A DNA stretch of 64,000 nt, taken from NCBI RefSeq assembly GCF_000331995.1, contig NC_020134.1, positions 2,021,465-2,085,464 of the forward strand. The letters run 5' to 3'. Positions 16,967 to 29,832 of this stretch are shown one piece after another. The position numbers and the translations under genes were made by a program. This DNA comes from Thermoclostridium stercorarium subsp. stercorarium DSM 8532 (GTDB lineage Bacteria > Bacillota > Clostridia > DSM-8532). Position 1 is the stretch's first letter. Every line of letters starts with the position of its first letter. The notes under the pieces are model-generated. The model saw only the letters and a program-made list of their open reading frames with translations, did not search any database and was not told the origin of the DNA.

Positions 16967-18457
16967 TTGAGACCGTCTTATCTGGTTTCCGTATATCAAG
17001 GTGAAGCTGCCCTTGATGAGAACTGTGCAACAGACAAAAGGTTCCGGAAATTGAAAAGCCATGAAATCAGTAATCTTCGTTCGTTCTGTGAGGAAATAAC
17101 TTCTTTTGGTTGTAACAGTGCCGATCTTGACGGATATTTTGTCGGATACTCAATACCGCAGATAGGAAAAGAATTTGATTTGTTGCGATTTGGGAATGAC
17201 AACATAATCAATATAGAGTTGAAAAGCGAGTTTAATGAAACTAAAATTGTTAAACAAATGAAAAAAAATTACTATTATTTAAAGTTTTTAAGCCGGCCTG
17301 TTAGAATTTTCTGTTTTGTTGACAACAATGGTTTTTATGAATATGATATTACTTCCGATTCCATTACTAAAATCCAAACTGATGTCATCGCCCAATGCAT
17401 AAAAAATCAGTTTGTTGATTACAGTACAGACCCGGATAAAGAATTCCTCCCGTCAAAATATCTTATCTCGCCTTTTAATTCCACCGATAAGTTTATTAAC
17501 GGAGAATATTTTCTGACAAACGCACAGCAGAAAATCAAAGATGAAATAAAAGCCGAATTGGGAAACACCCCCTTTACATATTTCTGTTTATCCGCAAACG
17601 CAGGCACCGGAAAAACGCTGTTGATATATGATATTGCCAAAGAAATGATCTCCAACGGGCTGACCCCTTTAATTATCCACTGCGGGAATTTAAACTTAGG
17701 GCATAATCTGCTCAAAGTTAAATACGATTGGAACATATATCCCATTAAGGACGTTGATGAAAAGTTTGTTGACACCTGTTTAGACAATTGCTCGGTTTTA
17801 TTTGTTGACGAGGCTCAGAGAATCAGGGACTCCCAATTGGAAATAATATTGAAAAAATCCATAGAAAATGAAATACCTATTATATTTTCTTATGATAAAA
17901 AACAGTTTTTACATAAAAATGAAGGAAAAGATATAGCTGAATATTTAAGAGGTAAATATCCAGAAGTTCGGCTTTCGGAAAAACATCTATCGTCGAATGT
18001 GCGTACAAACAATAAAATAGCGTCTTTTATAAACAACTTGTTCAAACCGGGAAGTTGTTATAGTAATTTGGATTACGATTGTATAACAATTGAATATTTC
18101 AAGAATTTGGATGATATGAAGAATTACGTAAATTTCTTAAGAAAAAATAATTGGACGCCCATAACATATACCACTTTTAAATCTAACAGTGATCCTTACG
18201 AGTATTTAGCCGATATATGTCCCATAAACGCACATAATGTCATCGGGCAGGAATTTCCGAAAGTGGTATCATTTATCGACAATCATTTCTATTATGGAGA
18301 AAACGGGGAGTTGGAGGCTGAGGACGGTTATTACAGCGCCAAAGGAATGCTATATCAGATTGTAACCCGCGCCGTTGAAGAATTGAAAATTATTGTATTC
18401 AATAATTGGAATTTGTACCATAGACTGCTTGAAATAAAATTTGCAGAAACTAAATAA
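16967..18457 (+). CDS. Nuclease-like plus DUF2075/SF1 helicase-like ATPase, defence candidate
   Basis: 496 residues, not in an operon. The N-terminal part (about 30-130) has a PD-(D/E)XK-like pattern: E...D in IGKEFDLLRF followed by NIELKSEF, i.e. D-x(n)-E-x-K, with a preceding helix. The C-terminal part (about 185-490) is a superfamily 1 helicase-type ATPase of the DUF2075 kind: Walker A SANAGTGKT (about 209), Walker B LFVDEAQRI (about 279), a Q/K-rich motif III (FSYDKKQF) and a late helicase motif with QIVTRAVEEL (about 463). Start is TTG with GGGAGGGTGG upstream. Single-gene nuclease-helicase proteins are often phage-defence genes; here that is inference. The gene is AT-rich against its neighbours, hinting at transfer. 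Confidence 0.65.
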   Translation: MRPSYLVSVYQGEAALDENCATDKRFRKLKSHEISNLRSFCEEITSFGCNSADLDGYFVGYSIPQIGKEFDLLRFGNDNIINIELKSEFNETKIVKQMKKNYYYLKFLSRPVRIFCFVDNNGFYEYDITSDSITKIQTDVIAQCIKNQFVDYSTDPDKEFLPSKYLISPFNSTDKFINGEYFLTNAQQKIKDEIKAELGNTPFTYFCLSANAGTGKTLLIYDIAKEMISNGLTPLIIHCGNLNLGHNLLKVKYDWNIYPIKDVDEKFVDTCLDNCSVLFVDEAQRIRDSQLEIILKKSIENEIPIIFSYDKKQFLHKNEGKDIAEYLRGKYPEVRLSEKHLSSNVRTNNKIASFINNLFKPGSCYSNLDYDCITIEYFKNLDDMKNYVNFLRKNNWTPITYTTFKSNSDPYEYLADICPINAHNVIGQEFPKVVSFIDNHFYYGENGELEAEDGYYSAKGMLYQIVTRAVEELKIIVFNNWNLYHRLLEIKFAETK

Positions 18458-18518
18458 AATAGCCTGCTTTTTGTCGCCTTTGGCTGGGAAATATGAACGC
18501 TTCGCGTAATTGTTAAAT

Positions 18519-19157
18519 TCAAACAAGGCTTGCTCCCAGCTCATAGGCTTCTTTTAATTTCAACGGGAACACCTTTTCATGGCGGGATTTTTTCTCTTCC
18601 GGATCAAAAACTGTCCAGTCGTATTTGCTGTAATCATCAACCTGCAAAGTGTTCCCGCAGATCATGACTTTTGTCGGTCCGACAAAGCGTTCCAGCGTCT
18701 GTTTATATCTGTCAAGCATGACTGTATAGCCTATTTTGTCGTAATAGCTTTCGTCACAGTTACTGGTATGGATTAGAAGGACGGGAATCATGTGTTCGTT
18801 GCAGTTAGGCCGTTCTTTGTTATAGGTCAATGACTGGAATACCAGCCGCTCATAAAGGGCTCTGAATCCTGCCGTCATTTCAGACAGATAATTCGGTGAG
18901 CCGAGGATAAGACCGTCGGCTTTACGGATTTTACCCAATACCTCAGTTAAACCGTCCTTAACGGCGCATCTGCCAAAACTTTCAGGCAGTTTGCAACGGA
19001 AACATGAAATACATCCTTTAAAAGGCTCAAGCTTATAAAGGTGAATGACTTCAGCGTCAGCCCCCGCTTCCCTGGCTCCCCTTGCCGCGGCCTCCACCAG
19101 TTTGGCTGTATTCCAGTTAGTCCTCGGACTGGCATTGACAGCAACAATATATTTCAT
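18519..19157 (-). CDS. Flavodoxin-fold NAD(P)H-dependent oxidoreductase, iron-sulfur flavoprotein-like
   Basis: FMN-binding flavodoxin-like protein of 212 residues. The N-terminus has the FMN-phosphate loop (VNASPRTNWNTAKLVEAA), then GCISCFRC...GRC (about residues 48-65), a compact Cys cluster as in iron-sulfur flavoproteins, and the second flavin loop GSPNYLSEMTAGFRALYERL. It probably transfers electrons from NAD(P)H or ferredoxin to a small acceptor; the substrate is unknown. Good AGGGA ribosome-binding site before ATG. No operon partner. Confidence 0.75.
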   Translation of the reverse strand: MKYIVAVNASPRTNWNTAKLVEAAARGAREAGADAEVIHLYKLEPFKGCISCFRCKLPESFGRCAVKDGLTEVLGKIRKADGLILGSPNYLSEMTAGFRALYERLVFQSLTYNKERPNCNEHMIPVLLIHTSNCDESYYDKIGYTVMLDRYKQTLERFVGPTKVMICGNTLQVDDYSKYDWTVFDPEEKKSRHEKVFPLKLKEAYELGASLV

Positions 19158-19296
19158 GCTTATCCCTCCCGGTTAAATTCGGCACTTATTATTTTACAAC
19201 CGTCACATGACGCAGACAATATGAGTATTTCGGAATAATAAATCATCCGGAATGACTTTTCGCGACAAACGCTGAAAATTAAAATAATACCGCTTT

Positions 19297-19355
19297 ATAA
19301 AAATAAAAATACTCTCTTTCGTTTATAAACGTATCTGCCCGAAAGAGAGTATTTT
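19297..19355 (-). terminator. Terminator of the phosphoribosyltransferase/permease operon
   Basis: A perfect 16-base inverted repeat (19306-19321 and 19340-19355) with core ATACTCTCTTTCG, followed on the minus strand by TTTTTATTTTTATAAAG. It lies 41 bases after the stop of the phosphoribosyltransferase gene. The stem core resembles the terminator at 30656-30701. Confidence 0.85.
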
Positions 19356-19396
19356 AATTCATATTGACGGGTTGATTTCATTAAGTTTTTCAATTT

Positions 19397-19981
19397 CTAT
19401 TCACTGTCGGAAATTTTACCCGGCAGCGGAATATGTCCGAGGGATACCAGCGGAATTCCTCTATAATTGCTTCTTTTTTCGCCCTCGGTTAAAACACAGG
19501 CAATTACCGAAATTTCAAAACCGATTTCCTGCGCCATCATTAAAGCCGCGTCCACCGTTCCGCCTGTAGACACCACATCATCGACAAAACACAGTTTTTT
19601 GCCCCGAAACCGTTCGTATTTTTCCCTGCCTACCCACAATTCCTGTTCACCATGCGTGGTTATGGACTTAACCGTCACATGCTTTGGCTCCTGCATAAAA
19701 GGTTTGCGGGATTTGCGCAGCTCAAGGTAACAGTCCATATCCCTCGCCAGTTCCTGGCAAAGTCCCGAGGACTTGGTCTGTACCGTAACAAACCCGTCAA
19801 AACTGTATGCCGCCAGTTTTTTAGACAGCGCCTTTGCAGCATGTCTGTTCCACTTTGACTCGCCTGTCATATCAAAGGAATATATATAAAACCCGTCCCC
19901 AATGTCAACAAGGGGCAACTCAACTTCAAGTTCTTCGTCTATGCGTATTTTCCAGAACGGAGGCCATTTTGAACCGAGCAT
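19397..19981 (-). CDS. Purine phosphoribosyltransferase (adenine/xanthine PRT type)
   Basis: Type I phosphoribosyltransferase that would join a purine base to PRPP for salvage. The PRPP-binding motif is clear: KLCFVDDVVSTGGTVDAAL (about residue 130), with two Asp and the TGGT loop. The N-terminal hood is specific and not closely recognised, so the base (adenine, xanthine or another) is not assigned. The start is set at the ATG at 19981, preceded by AAAGGG; an upstream GTG six codons earlier is possible. It is encoded 37 bases after an NCS2 purine permease, so uptake and salvage are coupled. Confidence 0.8.
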   Translation of the reverse strand: MLGSKWPPFWKIRIDEELEVELPLVDIGDGFYIYSFDMTGESKWNRHAAKALSKKLAAYSFDGFVTVQTKSSGLCQELARDMDCYLELRKSRKPFMQEPKHVTVKSITTHGEQELWVGREKYERFRGKKLCFVDDVVSTGGTVDAALMMAQEIGFEISVIACVLTEGEKRSNYRGIPLVSLGHIPLPGKISDSE

Positions 19982-20017
19982 TTCATCATCCCTTTCCACA
20001 AGCTTAGTTAAATATTT

Positions 20018-21163
20018 TCATATTAAACCTACGTATTGAGCGAAATAGCGAACCAAAATACCCACCACCATGCCAATGAAGGGATTTTTTGACCAGGCTG
20101 TCACTCCCATCGCAATATAACCGCTCATCGGATTTTCCGAGCCTGCCACAGCACTCAAATTGGGGGCGAAAGTAAGTGCAAAGCCGATTACAAGTAAGAA
20201 ACCCGCAATACTCTGGCTTGGAAGATATTTTCCCAGCCTGTCAATCAGGCCTGCCAAAATCAAAATACCCGTAGTAAACATGAAAACTATACCACACGCC
20301 ACAGGCCACGGAGCTCCGGCAGTACCTGATATTATGGCTTCAATCGGCGGCCCCCCGAATAAGGCACTGGGGAAGTCAGCCAGAGAGTTGATAATGGAAA
20401 GGTGGTCGTAATTTTGGCTTGTTCCCGCAATGCTTGCGGTTATGCCTCCAAAGGATATATTGGCGCCTATGTTAAGCATAACCAGGCTTAACGCCCCAAG
20501 AATAACATTTACGTTAATTCTGGGCTTAATGAGTTTAAAGTCTTTCCAGTACTCTTTTTTCCAAAAGCGCCATTCACTGCTCATTCGCATATATTCCCGG
20601 CCTTCTTCGACCGACGCGGCTATGTCCACTCTGCGTTTTTGCAACAGCAAAAAGTCCGCGGTTGACGCCACAACAGAAATAAAAATTGTCCAGACAACCT
20701 TGTTCGGGCTGTTGTAAAAAACAGCATAGGCCGCAATGGCCGTAACGATTGATACCAGCGAAGTGCGTTTATCCTGGTTAAACATATCCAGCGACACACC
20801 GGCCAAGATTAGCCCGACTCCGCTCATCATTCCGGAAATAACCGCCACGCCCGCAAATTCGGAAATTTTCGTAACGCCTCCGAAAGCAGAAATAATAATC
20901 ATGAATACCGCTGCAAGAAGAATGGAGCTGACATTATCCCTTAAATTCTTTTTAACACTGGCAACGGTGATGGTTTCAGCCTGGGCGGAAATCGGTGTTA
21001 CCGAGCCTGTGATAAGATTGCCAAATCCCCCGATTAAATAGGCAAAACCCGCAGGCTTTAAAGCAAAACCACGCGCCTGTGCATAAAGAAGCTGCGGCAC
21101 GCCATTGATGATTACAGCCACTACTGCCAGAATAAACGGTCCGAGATTGCTTAAGAACTCCAT
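20018..21163 (-). CDS. NCS2-family purine/xanthine permease
   Basis: Membrane symporter of about 381 residues with roughly twelve helices, importing a nucleobase. Features of the AzgA-like NCS2 group are seen: N-terminal GVPQLLYAQARGFALKPAG, the SVTPISAQAETITVASVKKN loop, and FGGPPIEAIISGTAGAPW in the second half. A GAGGAGG ribosome-binding site precedes the ATG. First gene of a two-gene operon with the phosphoribosyltransferase. I looked for a purine riboswitch in the leader and saw none. Confidence 0.85.
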   Translation of the reverse strand: MEFLSNLGPFILAVVAVIINGVPQLLYAQARGFALKPAGFAYLIGGFGNLITGSVTPISAQAETITVASVKKNLRDNVSSILLAAVFMIIISAFGGVTKISEFAGVAVISGMMSGVGLILAGVSLDMFNQDKRTSLVSIVTAIAAYAVFYNSPNKVVWTIFISVVASTADFLLLQKRRVDIAASVEEGREYMRMSSEWRFWKKEYWKDFKLIKPRINVNVILGALSLVMLNIGANISFGGITASIAGTSQNYDHLSIINSLADFPSALFGGPPIEAIISGTAGAPWPVACGIVFMFTTGILILAGLIDRLGKYLPSQSIAGFLLVIGFALTFAPNLSAVAGSENPMSGYIAMGVTAWSKNPFIGMVVGILVRYFAQYVGLI

Positions 21164-21332
21164 GAATTTTTCCTCCTCGTATCTTTCAATGTCAACAATA
21201 TAGCACTATTAAACCAAATCAGACAAGTAGATATAGTATGATTTGCAAAAAAATAATAAATTAGCCTTGAAATAAATTCACAATTCCAGGAAACTATGCT
21301 TGAACCGATTTTAAATGAATTTTCTCTTTTTT

Positions 21333-21371
21333 ACGCCTTCATACATCATTGCGGGAAGGCGTCATTCCCGC
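21333..21371. other. Two mutually exclusive hairpins
   Basis: ACGCCTTC (21333-21340) pairs with GAAGGCGT (21355-21362); GCGGGAA (21351-21357) pairs with TTCCCGC (21365-21371). The two stems share bases, so only one can form. The element lies between the divergent NCS2 permease and amino-acid transporter operons. There is no U tract on either strand. Function unknown. Confidence 0.4.
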
Positions 21372-21484
21372 TTCATTCAACTCAAGTTGTCCTTTCTGTT
21401 TCTGCTGACATTACTCAACAGTCTCCGGTAAAATATTTCATAACTAAATACATAGTATTCATATATTTTTAATAAAAAAAATAA

Positions 21485-21515
21485 TTGACAAAGTCCAGCT
21501 ACCATGCTATATAAT
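21485..21515 (+). promoter_or_regulatory. Sigma-A promoter of the amino-acid transporter operon
   Basis: TTGACA (21485-21490) and, after 17 bases, TATATA overlapping TATAAT (21508-21515). This is the clearest consensus promoter in the window. The leader ORF and the chimera gene follow. Confidence 0.8.
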
Positions 21516-21520
21516 GTTAT

Positions 21521-21547
21521 AAATTCATATATGAATAATATGAATTT
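21521..21547. promoter_or_regulatory. Palindromic operator just downstream of the -10 box
   Basis: AAATTCATAT and ATATGAATTT form ten-base inverted arms seven bases apart, and the first arm is itself part of the palindrome ATTCATATATGAAT. The site sits at the expected transcription start, so a bound repressor would block the promoter. The regulator is unknown. Confidence 0.5.
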
Positions 21548-21563
21548 AAAAAGGAGCATTTTT

Positions 21564-21632
21564 ATGAAAGAAAATCATGTAAATTACTGTTATTTAAGCG
21601 ATAAAAGCAGACATGAGATCTGTTGCCCCTGA
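21564..21632 (+). CDS. 22-residue Cys-containing leader peptide
   Basis: An ATG with AAAAAGGAGC seven bases upstream starts the peptide MKENHVNYCYLSDKSRHEIC followed by Cys-Pro and a stop. It has three Cys codons, two in tandem before the final Pro. It lies between the promoter and the first gene of an amino-acid (possibly cystine) ABC operon, so it could be an attenuation or translational-coupling leader that senses Cys-tRNA charging. The strong ribosome-binding site supports translation; the role is inference. Confidence 0.5.
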   Translation: MKENHVNYCYLSDKSRHEICCP

Positions 21633-21687
21633 CGCCTGATAATACACCAATAAAACATTCGCAAATAAAACGGAAGGAGAATCTGGC

Positions 21688-22995
21688 ATGTCAAAAAGGC
21701 AGTTGGTACTTGACGCATTCAACAATAAACCCGTGGAAAGAGTTCCTGTCGGTTTCTGGTTCCATTTCGCAGACAGCGGTGAATTTACCGAAGGGCTCAG
21801 AAATCCGGATATCATCCGTAAAAACATTGAAGGTCATAAAAAGTTTGTTGCCAAATTCAGGCCTGACTTTGTCAAAATCATGAGTGACGGTTTTTTTGAG
21901 TATCCGAACCCGGTTTTATTCAATATAGAATCTCCTGAAAAATTACTGGATCTAAAACCGATAGGTCCTGAACACCCCTGGATTGAAAAACAGGTCGGAC
22001 TGGTCAGAACTTTAACAGATTCTTTCGGTGACGAAGTTCTTACATTTTATAATATTTTTGCTCCTGCTACATATTTTAAAATGCTCTATGAAAAAACGGG
22101 AAACAGAGACAAGGTTCTTGCCGATCTTACAATGCAGAACAAAGACGCCGTCAAACACGCATTAAACACGATAGCGGAAGATCTTTCCACATTGGCGCGA
22201 AGAGTCATAACCGAAGGAAAAGCCGACGGAATTTATTTAAGCGTACAGAACGTTCAGGATTCCCGCATCACCCCCGAGCTTTACAATGAAGTGATTGCGC
22301 CGTCAGAGCTTATTGTGCTGGAAACGGCGAACAGACACAGTGAAAACAACATTCTGCACATTTGCGGATACGAAGGAAGCCGTAACGATTTGAACCTTTA
22401 TGTGCATTACAATGCAAAAGTTATAAATTGGGCCGTGAATGTGGAAGGCATAAGCCTTGCGGAAGGTAAAAAACTTTTTGGCGGCAGGGCAGTCATTGGA
22501 GGTTTTGACACGGCAAGTATAATAGGTTTAACCATACGAGCTGAAGACGCCGACAAAATCACCGATATGGAATCATTTGCAAAATACAGCGGCAAACTTG
22601 TTCCCATTGCGCCGCAAAACGCCCAGTGGGCCATAGTGGAGGAATACAACAGAACCCATCCCGACAATCAGGTAAACCTTGTTGCTTCGGAAGTTTTCAA
22701 TATTTCCGATGCATATACATGGGTCCTTGAAAGAAGATATGACGCGTATTTTGACATAAAATTAAGCTTTTATAACAATGTTCTGGCTGAAAATGCCCCA
22801 TACCGGGATTTTGCCGATAAACTTGCATATGTGCCGTATAGAGCCATTCCGACATATCCTTTGTTCAACAAAAACGATCAGGCGTTGGCAGACGCCTATG
22901 ATGAAGCTGTTGAACAGCTCAGAAAAGACGGTGTTATTTCGGAATTATCCCAGAAATATTTCGGCGAAGACATTTTCAAATACATTGACAAATAA
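21688..22995 (+). CDS. Chimera: URO-D-like N-terminus fused to C-terminal half of an ABC solute-binding protein
   Basis: One 435-codon frame with two unrelated parts. Residues 1 to about 274 look like a uroporphyrinogen-decarboxylase/MtaA-like barrel (MSKRQLVLDAFNNKPVERVP at the start, then HICGYEGSRNDLNLYVHYNA, LAEGKKLFGGRAVIGGFD) but lack the last ~65 residues of the family. From about residue 275 the sequence is that of an amino-acid-binding protein (SBP_bac_3): MESFAKYSGKLVPIAPQNAQ, RRYDAYFDIKLSF, ending ALADAYDEAVEQLRKDG and SELSQKYFGEDIFKYI. The signal peptide and first lobe of the binding protein are missing. Downstream lie the matching permeases and ATPase. The likely origin is an in-frame deletion joining two adjacent genes. 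As read, neither part is complete, so transport may be lost. AAGGAG precedes the ATG. Confidence 0.75.
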   Translation: MSKRQLVLDAFNNKPVERVPVGFWFHFADSGEFTEGLRNPDIIRKNIEGHKKFVAKFRPDFVKIMSDGFFEYPNPVLFNIESPEKLLDLKPIGPEHPWIEKQVGLVRTLTDSFGDEVLTFYNIFAPATYFKMLYEKTGNRDKVLADLTMQNKDAVKHALNTIAEDLSTLARRVITEGKADGIYLSVQNVQDSRITPELYNEVIAPSELIVLETANRHSENNILHICGYEGSRNDLNLYVHYNAKVINWAVNVEGISLAEGKKLFGGRAVIGGFDTASIIGLTIRAEDADKITDMESFAKYSGKLVPIAPQNAQWAIVEEYNRTHPDNQVNLVASEVFNISDAYTWVLERRYDAYFDIKLSFYNNVLAENAPYRDFADKLAYVPYRAIPTYPLFNKNDQALADAYDEAVEQLRKDGVISELSQKYFGEDIFKYIDK

Positions 22996-23022
22996 TTTTG
23001 ACAGTAAAGAAGGCAGATTGTT

Positions 23023-23727
23023 ATGAGACCATTTAGTCCCCTCTATATTCCGAAAGTATTTTTTGAATTGCTTACATCCTTTCCCGTAACAGTTTTAATG
23101 CTTGTAGGCTCCGTTATCTTCGGCTCTTTGCTGGGATTTGTCCTGGCAAGAGCCAAAATATCAGGGGGAAAAATTTCAAAGATCCTGGCCGACGCTTATA
23201 TTGGCGTGATGCGCTGCACCCCTCCGATTGTTCTGCTGTTTATTGTTTACTATGGCCTGCCCGAACTTCTGCTTTCCACCGCCGGCATAGACATCAATAA
23301 CGTTAATAAAGGCGTTTTCGTTCTTGTAACATATACACTGCTTTACGGGGCAACTATTTCAGAAATCATGCGGTCAGCCTACGAGTCTGTTGACAAAGGC
23401 CAGTGGGAAGCCGCAGTCAGCATAGGCTTAAGTCCTTTTCAGGCATTTTACAGAATCATGCTTCCCCAGGCAACCGCCGTGGCTCTGCCGAATTTTTGCA
23501 ATCTTTTAATAAACCTGATGAAAGACGGAGCTTTGGCTTTTACAATCGGGCTGGTTGATATAATGGGCAGAGGCTCGTTAATTATTTCAAGAAATTTCGG
23601 CGCCTATGCCCTGGAAACATATATTGCCCTTGCTTTGATATACTGGTGCCTTACGCTTGTTATTGAAAAGACTTTCAGCGTTCTGGAAAAATCCCTTTTG
23701 AGAGGTAAAAGAAGCCTGACGGAATAG
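23023..23727 (+). CDS. Polar amino-acid ABC transporter permease 1
   Basis: HisM/GlnP-family membrane subunit of 234 residues with about five helices. The ATPase-coupling EAA loop is clear (QWEAAVSIGLSPFQAFYRIMLPQA, about residue 128). It follows the chimera gene by 27 bases with AGAAGG before ATG. It would pair with the next gene to form a heterodimeric channel. Cystine or another polar amino acid is a plausible substrate, but sequence alone does not fix it. Confidence 0.88.
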   Translation: MRPFSPLYIPKVFFELLTSFPVTVLMLVGSVIFGSLLGFVLARAKISGGKISKILADAYIGVMRCTPPIVLLFIVYYGLPELLLSTAGIDINNVNKGVFVLVTYTLLYGATISEIMRSAYESVDKGQWEAAVSIGLSPFQAFYRIMLPQATAVALPNFCNLLINLMKDGALAFTIGLVDIMGRGSLIISRNFGAYALETYIALALIYWCLTLVIEKTFSVLEKSLLRGKRSLTE

Positions 23728-23739
23728 GAGGTGCACCGT

Positions 23740-24465
23740 ATGGAACTGGATGTCAAATTTATGATAGAAACGTTTTTCCAGGCGCTTTCCGGTATCCCCG
23801 TGACTCTTAGCATTACCGCAGTTGCTCTTATAATATCAACGCCGGTTGCATTTTTTATGGCCGTCTCGAAAATCTATAACATAAAAATCATAAAACAATT
23901 AGTGTCCGCATATGTTTCATTTATCAGAGGCACACCTGTTGTTTTGCAGATTCTGATTATTTACAGCCTGCTTCCGAGCCTGTTTAACTCAATAGCCAAA
24001 GGCATCGGATGGAATATTAACGTATTTGACATAAACCCAATCATTTACGCCTACATAGTTTTTTCAATTAACACATGCGCCGGGCTTTCCGAAATATTCC
24101 GTTCCGCCCTTCTGACCGTAAATAAGGGACAGCTGGAGGCTGCGCTTTCCATCGGAATGTCCGCCGTCCAGGCCTATGTCAGGATAATAATTCCGCAGGC
24201 CCTGGTTACGGCAATTCCCAATATCTGCAATCTTACAATCAATTTGATCAAGGGAACCTCCCTTGCCTTCATGATGACGGTAAAAGACATCACAGCCATT
24301 GCAAAAATTGCGGCTTCATACGGTTATAACTATATTGAAGCCTATCTGGACATTCTGTTCATCTATATTATTTTATGTTCACTGATCCAGCTGCTTTTTT
24401 CAATGCTTGAAAAACGTTTTGGTTCTTATAAAACCCTTGCCGGGACCACGGCGGGAACGAAATAA
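23740..24465 (+). CDS. Polar amino-acid ABC transporter permease 2
   Basis: Second HisM/GlnP-type subunit, about 241 residues, with the EAA loop QLEAALSIGMSAVQAYVRII. The ATG at 23740 is preferred to the in-frame GTG at 23731 because AGGAGGTG lies six bases before it. It starts 12 bases after the first permease. The two permeases are clearly related but distinct, as in TcyLM-like systems. Confidence 0.88.
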   Translation: MELDVKFMIETFFQALSGIPVTLSITAVALIISTPVAFFMAVSKIYNIKIIKQLVSAYVSFIRGTPVVLQILIIYSLLPSLFNSIAKGIGWNINVFDINPIIYAYIVFSINTCAGLSEIFRSALLTVNKGQLEAALSIGMSAVQAYVRIIIPQALVTAIPNICNLTINLIKGTSLAFMMTVKDITAIAKIAASYGYNYIEAYLDILFIYIILCSLIQLLFSMLEKRFGSYKTLAGTTAGTK

Positions 24466-24501
24466 AAAGCAACAAAAAACAAAAAAACCGGAGGCTGAAT
24501 C

Positions 24502-25257
24502 ATGCTCGAATTAATTGACATACATAAATCCTTTAATAATAATGAGGTTCTGAAAGGTGTCAGCATAAAAGTGAACAAGGGCGATGTGGTTGTTATTCTG
24601 GGCCCCAGCGGTTCCGGAAAAACCACTCTTCTCCGCTGCATTAATTTTCTCGAACGGGCCGATAAAGGAGAAATAATCCTTGACGGCATGCATGTGAATG
24701 TCAGGACAGCGTCTTCATCCGAGATTTCAAGAATACGAAAAAAAACGGCATTTGTATTCCAAAGTTTCAATCTTTTTAACAACAAAACCGCTCTTGAAAA
24801 TGTTACTGAAGGTTTGATCGTGGCAAGGAAAGTACCAAAGGCCGAAGCCATTGAAATTGCAAAAAGAGCCTTGAACAAAGTGGGGCTTTCGGACCGGGAG
24901 GATTATTACCCTTCCAAACTTTCAGGCGGACAGCAGCAGAGAGTAGCAATTGCGAGGGCAATCGCCGTCAATCCGGATGTAATATTGTTTGACGAGCCCA
25001 CTTCCGCCCTTGACCCTGAACTTACGGGCGAAGTGCTTGCGGTTATGAAACAGCTGGCCGGAGAAGGTGTAACCATGCTTGTAGTAACCCATGAAATGTC
25101 TTTTGCCCGGGATGTCGCCAATCACATTGTATTCATGGCCGGCGGGGTTGTTGTTGAGGAGGGGCCGCCCGAAGAGATATTCACCAATCCACACGAGGAA
25201 AGAACAAAACAGTTTTTAAGCAGAATACTTCCACCGGTGGAGGATTACGTCATTTAA
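24502..25257 (+). CDS. Polar amino-acid ABC transporter ATPase (GlnQ/TcyN type)
   Basis: ATP-binding subunit of 251 residues with all ABC motifs: Walker [10 protein letters not shown] (about residue 34), signature [14 protein letters not shown], Walker [12 protein letters not shown], and the switch His in [11 protein letters not shown]. Last gene of the operon; it is followed by a bidirectional terminator. Length and motifs are typical of the polar amino-acid uptake family. Confidence 0.93.
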
Positions 25258-25382
25258 TCCCTTTCCCCCTCTTGCCGGGATATTTGTCCGGCGACAAACT
25301 GAAATTCAGCCTTTCAGTCGGTCTTTGCCATTATACATACTGTTTTGCGTGATCTTTGAAAAAATAAACCCTGATTTTGCAA

Positions 25383-25427
25383 AAAAACTAATGGTATTGT
25401 TTTTCAAAATCAACACCATTAGTTTTT
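25383..25427. terminator. Bidirectional terminator
   Basis: Perfect 13-base inverted repeat AAAAACTAATGGT / ACCATTAGTTTTT with a 19-base loop, giving T runs on both strands. It lies between the convergent amino-acid transporter ATPase (+) and mrp (-) genes. Confidence 0.85.
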
Positions 25428-25465
25428 CTAATCGGGATGAATTCCACTGTCTGCCGGTATATACA

Positions 25466-26308
25466 TTATTTGTTATCAAGGCTTTTTTCCAGTATATCTG
25501 CCACAGGCTCAAGCCAGTTGCCTTCGAACAGCTCTATCAGTCCCTTGTCACACACGGCTGAGATTTCAGGATTGATAGGAAGCCTTGCAAGCACTTTTAA
25601 ATTGTGCATACCCGCGATTTCATCAATATGGCTGTCGCCGAAAATTTTATGTTCGGTGCCGCAGTCAGGACATTTATAATACGACATGTTTTCTACAAGG
25701 CCTATAATAGGAATATTCATCATTTCAGCCATTCTGACGGCTTTTGACACAATCATTGATACCAAATCCTGAGGCGAAGTTACGACAATAATCCCGTCAA
25801 CGGCAATGGACTGGAAAACCGTCAAAGGTACGTCTCCGGTGCCGGGCGGCATATCAATGAACATAAAATCCACATCGCTCCATATAACGTTCGTCCAGAA
25901 CTGTTTCACCAAATTGCCAATCATCGGACCTCTCCATACAACAGGATCGGTATCGTTCTCCAGAAGCAAATTGACGGACATAATATCTATGCCTGTCCTG
26001 CTTCTGACGGGTAACAGGCCGAATTCATTGCCCGTTGCCTTTTGCTTTATCCCGAATGCTTTAGGAATGGAAGGCCCTGTGATGTCAGCATCCATAATTG
26101 CGGTATGATAACCCCTTCTGTTCATTGTAACCGCCAGCATTGAGGTTACAAGCGACTTGCCCACTCCTCCCTTGCCGCTTACAATACCGATGACTTTTTT
26201 AATACTGCTCATTTCATGCGGCTTTTCACGGAAATCAACTTTCCGTTCCGTTCTTGCAGCGCAGTCATCCGTACAACTGCCACAGTTTTGATTGCACATT
26301 GTACCCAT
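25466..26308 (-). CDS. mrp: Mrp/NBP35-type Fe-S cluster carrier ATPase
   Basis: P-loop ATPase of 280 residues that binds and delivers Fe-S clusters (ApbC/Nbp35 family). The deviant Walker A GKGGVGKS is at about residues 45-52. DADITGPSIPKAF and FIDMPPGTGD follow, then the C-terminal CPDCG cluster-binding pair (about 216). An extra N-terminal Cys cluster (CNQNCGSCTDDC, residues 5-16) resembles the ferredoxin-like N-terminus of NBP35 proteins. AAAGGAG precedes the ATG. Useful in a cell with many Fe-S enzymes such as the hydrogenases in this window. Confidence 0.88.
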   Translation of the reverse strand: MGTMCNQNCGSCTDDCAARTERKVDFREKPHEMSSIKKVIGIVSGKGGVGKSLVTSMLAVTMNRRGYHTAIMDADITGPSIPKAFGIKQKATGNEFGLLPVRSRTGIDIMSVNLLLENDTDPVVWRGPMIGNLVKQFWTNVIWSDVDFMFIDMPPGTGDVPLTVFQSIAVDGIIVVTSPQDLVSMIVSKAVRMAEMMNIPIIGLVENMSYYKCPDCGTEHKIFGDSHIDEIAGMHNLKVLARLPINPEISAVCDKGLIELFEGNWLEPVADILEKSLDNK

Positions 26309-26804
26309 GGTTTTTTCTCCTTTCAGATTAAAGCATATATTTCATAAACTTATCATTGGTATATTTACCCTTTGTTTTTTGTTCTCTGCAGGTAATTTTC
26401 ATCCTTAAAGCCTTTTCAAAATTTTACAATCTATAAATAAAAGGAACTAAAAAAATAAAAAATTCTGGCGCACTATTCTTAGAATATATCAAAAATCCGG
26501 AAAATAAAAACCCAAAATAACAGAATACAGTACGGATGGGTGGCATAATTTTTTCTTTACTGCCGTTTAACGCCTGTAATTAGTCAATTCAACAGCCTTT
26601 ATAACCAGATCATCCTTCTCCGTTCACCCCGTTACATCCGTCCTTTGCTGTATGGTACGTCCTTTACAGACTTAATCTCCTGCCTTGTACAAGTTGAGCA
26701 AATTTAAATTGTGTAAACAGCCTAAATTACCCGACTTTTACCATTGATCATCTTTTAATGTTGACATAAAATACTTTTCAGTAGAAACTATCCGGAGGTG
26801 CTCC
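26309..26804. other. Divergent intergenic region
   Basis: About 500 bases between mrp (-) and the MarR gene (+). A TTGACA lies at 26761-26766 in front of the MarR gene, with a poor -10. A small palindrome TATTCTTAGAATA is at 26474-26486. I see no gene here. Confidence 0.4.
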
Positions 26805-27251
26805 ATGGACATAGACAGTATGGCAGTCGAACTCAGCCAAATGCACATTGACAATGCAAAACTCCTTACACAGATTGCAAATGCCCTGTCCATGAGCGGC
26901 GAAATGGGCGTTTTGCTGTGGCTGAGCCAACAAAAAAGTAGAACTTACGCTACTGATATAATAAAACACTTCGGTTTAACGCCCGGCCGAGTTGCGAATA
27001 TCTTAAAAAAACTGGAGCAGCGTCAGTTAATTGTCCGGCATGAAGATACCGTAGATCAGCGAAAGTTTTGCATATTACTGACAAAAAAAGGCGTCATGTA
27101 CGCAAATGAGCTTTACTCGCAGATGAATGACGGTCATGCCCGGATTCTGGCGGCTCTGGGCCAGGAAGATGCGTCTGAGGGATTAAGAATCCTCAAGCGC
27201 GTTATTACTCTGATTAACAACGGGGTAAAACTTCACACAGCCGATTCATAA
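26805..27251 (+). CDS. MarR-family regulator upstream of feoAB
   Basis: 148-residue winged-helix transcription factor. The MarR core is clear: GVLLWLSQQKSRTYATDIIK, recognition helix region LTPGRVANILKKLEQRQLIV, wing RHEDTVDQRKFCILLTKKG. CGGAGGTG precedes the ATG. It is directly upstream of the FeoA-FeoB gene (62 bases), so it may regulate ferrous-iron uptake; no metal-binding motif is obvious, and that link is inference. Confidence 0.8.
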   Translation: MDIDSMAVELSQMHIDNAKLLTQIANALSMSGEMGVLLWLSQQKSRTYATDIIKHFGLTPGRVANILKKLEQRQLIVRHEDTVDQRKFCILLTKKGVMYANELYSQMNDGHARILAALGQEDASEGLRILKRVITLINNGVKLHTADS

Positions 27252-27313
27252 TTACATTCATGCCTGTTTTGCCCACTGCACCATCCGGAAGCCATAAGAA
27301 AAGAGGGCATTGT

Positions 27314-29650
27314 ATGACACTAAATGAGATAGAAATCGGAAAAACAGCGGTCATAACCAAAGTAGGCGGAGAAGGTGCCTTGCGACAGCATTTGCTGGAC
27401 ATGGGGGTAATTCCCGGCGCGGAGGTCACCATAGTTAGATACGCACCGATGGGTGATCCTGTTGAGGTAATAATCCACGGTTATGCACTGACTTTGAGGC
27501 TGGACGACGCAAAAAAAATAGAAGTCAGGCCTGTATCCGAACCTGCAAAAAAAGCGGAAAAAAAGCGCTCAACATCAAAGACCGTTCATCCCAATCTCGG
27601 TGAAAGGGGAAAGTCCCGTTCAAAAAGCAATTGCACCCCGTTACCTGAAGGAACAACGTTGACCTTTGCACTGGTCGGAAATCAGAACTGTGGCAAAACC
27701 ACGCTTTTTAATCAGCTCACAGGCGCCAATCAGCATGTGGGCAATTTCCCCGGCGTGACGGTTGATCGTAAAGACGGCGTAATCAAGGGGCATCCAAATA
27801 CAATTGTTACCGATTTACCCGGCATTTACTCAATGTCGCCCTACAGCAACGAAGAGATCGTATCCCGTAATTTCGTTCTTTACGAAAAGCCAAAGGCCAT
27901 TATCAACATAGTAGACGCCACCAATATAGAACGCAACCTGTATCTTACCATGCAACTGCTGGAAATGAATGTCCCCATGGTTGTTGCGCTGAATATGATG
28001 GACGAACTGACCGCAAACGGCGGAACCATAGACATAAATACCATGGAAGCCATGCTCGGTGTTCCCGTCGTTCCTATATCCGCAGCGAAAAATCAGGGAA
28101 TAAACGAACTGGTGGAACATGCAATTCACGTTGCCCGCTATCAGGAAAAACCCCTGCATCAGGATTTCTGTGACGAAAACGGCGAACGTGGCGCCGTTCA
28201 CCGCTGTCTGCACAGTATATATCATCTGATTGAGGACCATGCAAAAAAGGCTCAGATTCCTCCCCGCTTTGCAGCAAGCAAGGTAATTGAGGGCGACCCT
28301 CTGGTCATATCACAGCTTGAGCTTGATCAAAACGAAATAGAAACAATAGAGCATATTATTCTTCAAATGGAAAAAGAACGCGGGCTTGACAGGCATGCCG
28401 CAATTGCCGATATGCGGTATGCATTTATCAGGAAAGTGTGCGACGCCAGCGTGACAAAGCCCCAAAAAAGCAGGGAAAGCATACGGAGTGAAAAAATCGA
28501 CCGCGTTCTTACAGGTAAATGGACTGCAATACCAATATTTGTTCTGATAATGGCAGCCGTTTTCTGGCTGACATTTGACGTGATTGGTGGCACGCTCCAG
28601 GGCTGGCTGGAAGAAGTAATATATGCTCTTACCGAACTTACCGATAAAGGGCTGACCAGGCTTGGCGTAAATGCTGTATTGCACAGGCTTATCATTGACG
28701 GAATTTTTACCGGTGTGGGAACGGTTTTAAGCTTCCTTCCGATAATCGTCACGCTGTTCTTCTTCCTCTCTCTGCTTGAAGACAGTGGTTATATAGCCCG
28801 TGTGGCGTTTTTTATGGACAAGCTGCTTCGTAAAATAGGACTGTCCGGCCGGAGCATAGTCCCACTGCTGATAGGATTCGGCTGCACCGTTCCGGCGGTT
28901 ATGTCCACCCGTACCCTGCCAAGTGAACGGGACAGGAAGATGACAATCCTTCTTACTCCGTTTATGAGTTGTACGGCAAAACTGCCCATATATGCGTTTT
29001 TCGTCGACGCGTTTTTCCCGAAATACAAAGCGCTTATTATGAGCGGACTTTACTTTCTCGGCATTGCCGTTGGCATCCTTGTCGCGCTGCTGTTTAAGAA
29101 TACCCTTTTCAAGGGTGAGGCGGTACCGTTCGTGATGGAACTTCCCAATTACCGTATGCCAAGCACCCGGAATGTCGGACAGCTTTTGTGGGAAAAAGCC
29201 AAGGATTTCCTTCAGAGAGCGTTTACCATTATTTTTCTTGCAACTATTGTCATTTGGATACTGCAGAGTTTTGATCCCCATTTCTACCCGGTTGAAAACC
29301 AGCAGGACAGCATTCTGGCGATTATTGCCGGCTGGCTGACACCAATAATGAAGCCGGTTGGGCTTGGGGACTGGAGGATATGCACATCGCTGATAAGCGG
29401 ATTTTTGGCAAAGGAAAACGTTGTATCCACTTTTAAAATCCTTTTTGGTCAGGACGTACCCGCTGTAATGGCACCGGCCACTGCAGCGTCACTGCTGGTG
29501 TTTTCCCTCCTCTACACCCCATGTGTCGCAGCCATTGCTTCAATTAAAAGAGAACTTGGGGCAAAATGGGCTTTCGGAGTAATTGCATGGCAGTGTTTCG
29601 TTGCCTGGTGCGCCGCTTTGGTTACACATCTTATTGTCGTTCTTGTTTAG
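27314..29650 (+). CDS. feoB: FeoA-FeoB fusion, ferrous iron transporter
   Basis: Membrane GTPase that imports Fe2+. Residues 1-75 are a FeoA (SH3-like) domain (MTLNEIEIGKTAVITKVGGE), then a basic linker (75-110), then the FeoB G domain with G1 GNQNCGKTT (about 121; the usual Pro is Gln), GNFPGVT and DLPGIYS. A helical insert follows, then a membrane part of roughly eight or more helices with the Gate motifs around GFGCTVPAVMSTRTL and FLAKENVV. FeoA and FeoB are usually separate genes; fusion occurs in some Firmicutes. The start is set at the ATG after AAGAGGG. It follows the MarR gene in the same direction. Confidence 0.92.
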   Translation: MTLNEIEIGKTAVITKVGGEGALRQHLLDMGVIPGAEVTIVRYAPMGDPVEVIIHGYALTLRLDDAKKIEVRPVSEPAKKAEKKRSTSKTVHPNLGERGKSRSKSNCTPLPEGTTLTFALVGNQNCGKTTLFNQLTGANQHVGNFPGVTVDRKDGVIKGHPNTIVTDLPGIYSMSPYSNEEIVSRNFVLYEKPKAIINIVDATNIERNLYLTMQLLEMNVPMVVALNMMDELTANGGTIDINTMEAMLGVPVVPISAAKNQGINELVEHAIHVARYQEKPLHQDFCDENGERGAVHRCLHSIYHLIEDHAKKAQIPPRFAASKVIEGDPLVISQLELDQNEIETIEHIILQMEKERGLDRHAAIADMRYAFIRKVCDASVTKPQKSRESIRSEKIDRVLTGKWTAIPIFVLIMAAVFWLTFDVIGGTLQGWLEEVIYALTELTDKGLTRLGVNAVLHRLIIDGIFTGVGTVLSFLPIIVTLFFFLSLLEDSGYIARVAFFMDKLLRKIGLSGRSIVPLLIGFGCTVPAVMSTRTLPSERDRKMTILLTPFMSCTAKLPIYAFFVDAFFPKYKALIMSGLYFLGIAVGILVALLFKNTLFKGEAVPFVMELPNYRMPSTRNVGQLLWEKAKDFLQRAFTIIFLATIVIWILQSFDPHFYPVENQQDSILAIIAGWLTPIMKPVGLGDWRICTSLISGFLAKENVVSTFKILFGQDVPAVMAPATAASLLVFSLLYTPCVAAIASIKRELGAKWAFGVIAWQCFVAWCAALVTHLIVVLV

Positions 29651-29832
29651 GTAACTTTAATAATTTTCCGCAGCAAAATAAAAAGTCCCCGGGCACTGCC
29701 CTGCCGGACATGATAAACAAAATTGCAAACCTTCAACGATTTAAATCCATCTGTGTTGACGAGTCCCAAAATCATTATTAAAAATATTAACATAATAAAC
29801 CAAAACATAAAATGGAAGGTAGGTGCAGAATT

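Follow-up and report, generated by a model that had tools for sequence, protein, structure and literature searches.

Automatic annotation records as an ordinary open frame a stretch of coding DNA that unites parts of two different proteins, and such a frame could be mistaken for a novel fusion of domains. One lies in the window analysed here, a 64,000-nucleotide stretch of the genome of Thermoclostridium stercorarium subsp. stercorarium DSM 8532, where a URO-D/MtaA-like enzyme runs directly into the end of an amino-acid solute-binding protein (SBP). The question is whether this frame encodes a new protein, descends from an old fusion, is a product of assembly, or is what a deletion left of two neighbouring genes, as the initial annotation had proposed.

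Architecture of the chimeric frame

The open reading frame (21688–22995, plus strand) has an ATG start, a good ribosome-binding site and 435 open codons. Residues 1–274 (21688–22510) are URO-D/MtaA-like, and the remainder (22511–22995) is the C-terminal ~160 residues of an SBP_bac_3 binding protein, without signal peptide, lipobox or N-lobe; this division, already seen in the initial annotation, is upheld by Pfam and by alignment of each half to G023, a genome from the same family but another genus that was found among 60 relatives. The URO-D match (PF01208) covers residues 75–279 (46.7 bits, E 3e-12) and ends at profile position 295 of 346. The expected SBP_bac_3 match was also found, at residues 314–427, with only the profile end (97–132 of 132) and 26.4 bits, exactly the cut-off, or 28.2 bits when the C-terminal part was scanned alone. 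Both domains are thus real, and each is truncated where it meets the junction.

The URO-D fold is recovered over the barrel by both Pfam and Foldseek, the top structural matches of the chimera model being URO-D structures, and the C-terminal end of the match is incomplete. The HxC pair (H224, C226) is kept, the C-terminal GADC cysteine is deleted and C226 is the one cysteine that the chimera retains, with none after it, which leaves the HxC...C zinc motif incomplete. The SBP_bac_3 part does not have the two lobes and export signal of a solute-binding protein. AlphaFold confidence is mostly 84–99 over residues 1–270 and then falls to a mean of about 45; the residues of the intact G023 SBP that match this poor part reach a mean of about 77 from an alignment of comparable shallowness, and the SBP fragment of the chimera is predicted to fold poorly.

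Formation of the junction

In G023 the genes are unfused and ordered as URO-D (338 aa), a gap of about 20 bp, a lipoprotein SBP (298 aa), two permeases and an ATPase. Identity of the two halves to G023 is 79–81%; in the direct alignment, the chimera is 79% identical to the G023 enzyme over residues 1–282 and 80% identical to the G023 SBP over residues 273–434, and the matched parts are 600 bp apart in G023. From enzyme start to SBP stop, the distance is 1935 bp in G023 and 1308 bp in the window, a difference of 627 bp; with two extra upstream codons in the window, ~633 bp (211 codons) are missing relative to G023, in frame. The alignment with a relative that had been suggested as a check hence supports the proposal that a deletion joined two adjacent genes in frame, and it places the edge where expected, around base 22510: the best-scoring break against G023 falls at 22510/22511 and is uncertain by a few bases (22508–22516, plus strand).

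An imperfect repeat lies near the deletion ends in G023, ACAGCAAGC and GCAGCCAGC, which agree at 7/9 bases. Simple slippage between direct repeats was considered and rejected, since the repeat is only 7/9 in G023 and the Asn codon found after GGF(D/A/S/P) in relatives is gone from the chimera, a product that does not fit a simple slip. These two features suggest near-blunt joining instead. A chimeric pseudogene is marked by one clean junction and by relatives in which both parent genes are intact and adjacent; here the junction is single and clean, and intact neighbouring parents occur in G023 and in five other lineages.

Losses and remaining copies

In MtaA/MtbA-type enzymes, zinc held by the HxC...C residues activates the thiol acceptor. 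An analogous HXCXnC zinc site is documented for MetE (PMC7005905). Both HxC and the GADC cysteine are kept in 10/10 unfused enzymes aligned, and this conserved cysteine was taken by the deletion, as were the signal peptide, lipobox and N-lobe of the SBP. The truncation of the URO-D-like enzyme and the loss of its zinc-ligand-type cysteine had escaped the initial annotation, and on their account both proteins, rather than the receptor alone, are probably dead.

Of the two outcomes originally put forward, a transporter that lost its receptor is favoured, since no second copy of the cassette SBP, N-lobe included, occurs in the genome; for the other, a gained cytoplasmic function, no evidence was found. 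The genome likewise has no second gene of the URO-D family. Its other SBP_bac_3 proteins adjoin their own permeases, and the permease–ATPase complex may share such a foreign SBP. Elsewhere in the same genome, a 285-aa SBP_bac_3 lipoprotein (L040:1291-2148, minus strand, near G000:C1:1835487-1836185) is apparently circularly permuted, with profile positions 80–131 before 1–119, and is followed by a permease gene.

The transporter genes and the cassette

Downstream, on the plus strand, lie two permease genes of the BPD_transp_1 family (23023–23727 and 23731–24465), intact by Pfam, NCBIfam and codon comparison, and an ATPase gene (24502–25257), likewise intact, whose best NCBIfam match is the L-cystine model TcyN, below its cut-off. 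As first described, these are intact subunits of an amino-acid ABC transporter; their best NCBIfam matches are of cystine or glutamine type, all below equivalog cut-offs.

When window positions 18000–29700 were compared by blastn with the G023 stretch (L015), the sole matched part was 21453–25256 (plus strand), a cassette block with about 75% DNA identity and unrelated flanks. The cassette is absent from the three same-genus genomes, and its neighbours match DNA in same-genus genomes that do not carry it. Because homology with G023 is confined to this block and the neighbours match cassette-free genomes, the cassette appears to be a discrete block that was gained or lost as a whole.

A possible 22-codon leader peptide precedes the enzyme gene (21564–21632, plus strand). 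Its sequence, MKENHVNYCYLSDKSRHEICCP, is identical to that of G023, MKRNHVNCSYLSDRSRHEICCR, at 17/22 residues by alignment of the leader DNA, and it ends in RHEICCP; it is possibly a cysteine-responsive leader peptide. A widespread RHEICC leader was considered and rejected: a motif search gave 24 genomes, but hits beyond the window and G023 stood in unrelated contexts, either inside a conserved long frame with AIARHEICC, which looks like a methyltransferase and is probably TrmN6, or at places where no short leader frame is plausible, which leaves two genomes in support of the leader. No Rfam riboswitch match was found in the conserved leader of the window or of G023.

Timing and constraint

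Between the window and G023, dN is 0.12 for the enzyme part, 0.10–0.12 for the SBP part and 0.13–0.15 for the permeases, with dS near or above 1, so that both halves evolve in the regime of the permeases, with dN low against dS. With Paenibacillus as outgroup, the counts of changes on the window and G023 branches are 10:11 in the enzyme, 8:11 in the SBP part and, in the three transporter genes, 17:7, 11:19 and 13:8; relative-rate tests on the five parts gave no significant result, and neither half is accelerated. Single changes between the window and G023 do occur at outgroup-invariant positions, including Gly to Arg in the window SBP part.

Since neither half evolves faster, the deletion looks very recent. 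Almost the whole branch would have passed under normal constraint, and a very recent deletion, an artefact or a fusion still under constraint fit the rate data equally; the recent deletion is favoured among the three, given which residues are missing and that the genome is a single contig. The intactness of the downstream genes, confirmed here, had been thought odd for a dead system, an oddness that disappears if the deletion is recent, as the frame was kept and the downstream ribosome-binding sites were untouched.

Weighing the explanations

The same fusion was sought in other genomes, as had been advised, and was found in none of 32 family genomes and none of 391 genomes sampled from the class. 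Two apparent further cases, L020 and L021, came from a short matched span that was misleading; the genes, when read, are an SBP followed by a URO-D, unfused. The five gene types are unfused in Paenibacillus sp. NFR01, a Megamonas MAG, two Treponema/Spirochaetales MAGs, Anaerobium acetethylicum and a Lachnospiraceae MAG, the SBP preceding the enzyme in the last two. An ancient fusion inherited by the lineage, in favour of which nothing was found, is ruled out by these unfused relatives on present sampling, and its probability is negligible. It is also very improbable that the fusion is a functional new protein, such as a cytoplasmic sensor or regulator of the transporter, a cytoplasmic decoy built from a methyltransferase barrel and a lobe of the binding protein, or a methyltransferase whose partner domain has changed. 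The chimera is open and shows no decay: its frame, start and ribosome-binding site are preserved, it has no premature stop and neither half is accelerated, just as a selected fusion would show, but it has lost the zinc-motif cysteine, carries an N-lobe-less SBP fragment that is predicted to fold poorly, has Arg in place of an outgroup-invariant Gly, and was found in no other genome examined.

The junction is known from one assembly of one strain, a fact that, with the lack of decay in either half and of any other genome with the junction, speaks for an assembly or consensus error that dropped 633 bp from an intact pair, or for a deletion that only a minority of the culture or population carries. 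Such an origin is nevertheless unlikely: the genome is one 2.97-Mb contig rated 100% complete, only the imperfect repeat lies near the ends, so that an assembler would meet no long repeat that could lead it astray, and a join made by artefact would be in frame only one third of the time. A recent in-frame deletion that produced a chimeric pseudogene, abolished both functions and orphaned the transporter is highly probable. As in other deletion-made chimeric pseudogenes, the remnants come from two neighbouring, co-oriented genes, were joined by one deletion and are intact in relatives; unlike the usual case, the deletion is in frame, and for this reason no stop codon flags the chimera as a pseudogene. 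A literature search on deletion-made gene fusions and orphaned transporters returned nothing specific.

The deletion would have struck a conserved transport-and-methyltransfer cassette, removing the 3' end of the gene for a URO-D-like, MtaA/Mlp-type zinc methyltransferase-like enzyme, together with the 20-bp gap and the 5' portion of the SBP lipoprotein gene. The fused remnants would then be a URO-D barrel without its last segment and GADC cysteine, joined to a cytoplasmic SBP fragment without the N-lobe. Enzyme and binding functions would both be lost, and the permease–ATPase complex, left without its cognate receptor, would decay in time.

The intact cassette and known systems

The intact G023 enzyme matches NCBIfam models of MtaA/CmuA type (best PRK06252, E 2.8e-7, far below every curated cut-off) and, by sequence, is a distant member of that group; a PDB sequence search with the intact enzyme gave no match at E 0.001. 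According to Kountz and Balskus (PMC10418091), type 1 mlp gene clusters with related enzymes have been linked to methyl-sulfur or methyl-selenide metabolism and have nitrogenase-like and cystathionine-lyase genes in their vicinity. The cassette shares with the soluble coenzyme M methyltransferases MtaA/MtbA and the Mlp proteins of these clusters the conserved HxC...C, and NifH/NifDK-like and Cys/Met PLP-enzyme genes lie near cassettes, as the same paper reports for non-selenium mlp clusters. In contrast to these systems, the cassette stretches read contained no recognisable gene for a corrinoid protein or an activase, the enzyme of the window is truncated, and the available text of PMC10418091 makes no mention of an ABC transporter. 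Beside the cassette of the Megamonas MAG (L024:1475-4701, minus strand) lie a NifH-like gene and an 820-aa fused NifDK-like gene with two nitrogenase component 1 domains; Cys/Met PLP-enzyme genes adjoin other cassettes. A further genome, G055 (L004:57-3556), has two tandem URO-D-like genes after two putative dihydroxyacetone kinase subunit genes, with no transporter in the stretch read.

The transporter resembles cystine-type ABC importers (TcyJKLMN / YtmK), for cystine models are among the best matches of SBP, permeases and ATPase, and the best PDB match of the intact SBP is 2o1m, YtmK. It differs from them in that all cassette scores lie below equivalog cut-offs, which makes cystine a candidate ligand type only, and in that the window SBP is truncated. 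The best conjecture for the intact cassette is that it imports a methylated sulfur compound and demethylates it, with about an even chance of being correct.

Significance

The chimera is most likely a plain example, ordinary in kind, of gene decay confined to one genome, in which a cassette would have been caught shortly after a single deletion put two of its five genes out of action and before decay. The comparison also brought out a conserved five-gene set in Firmicutes and Spirochaetes, an MtaA-like enzyme with a cystine-type importer, often beside sulfur-metabolism genes.
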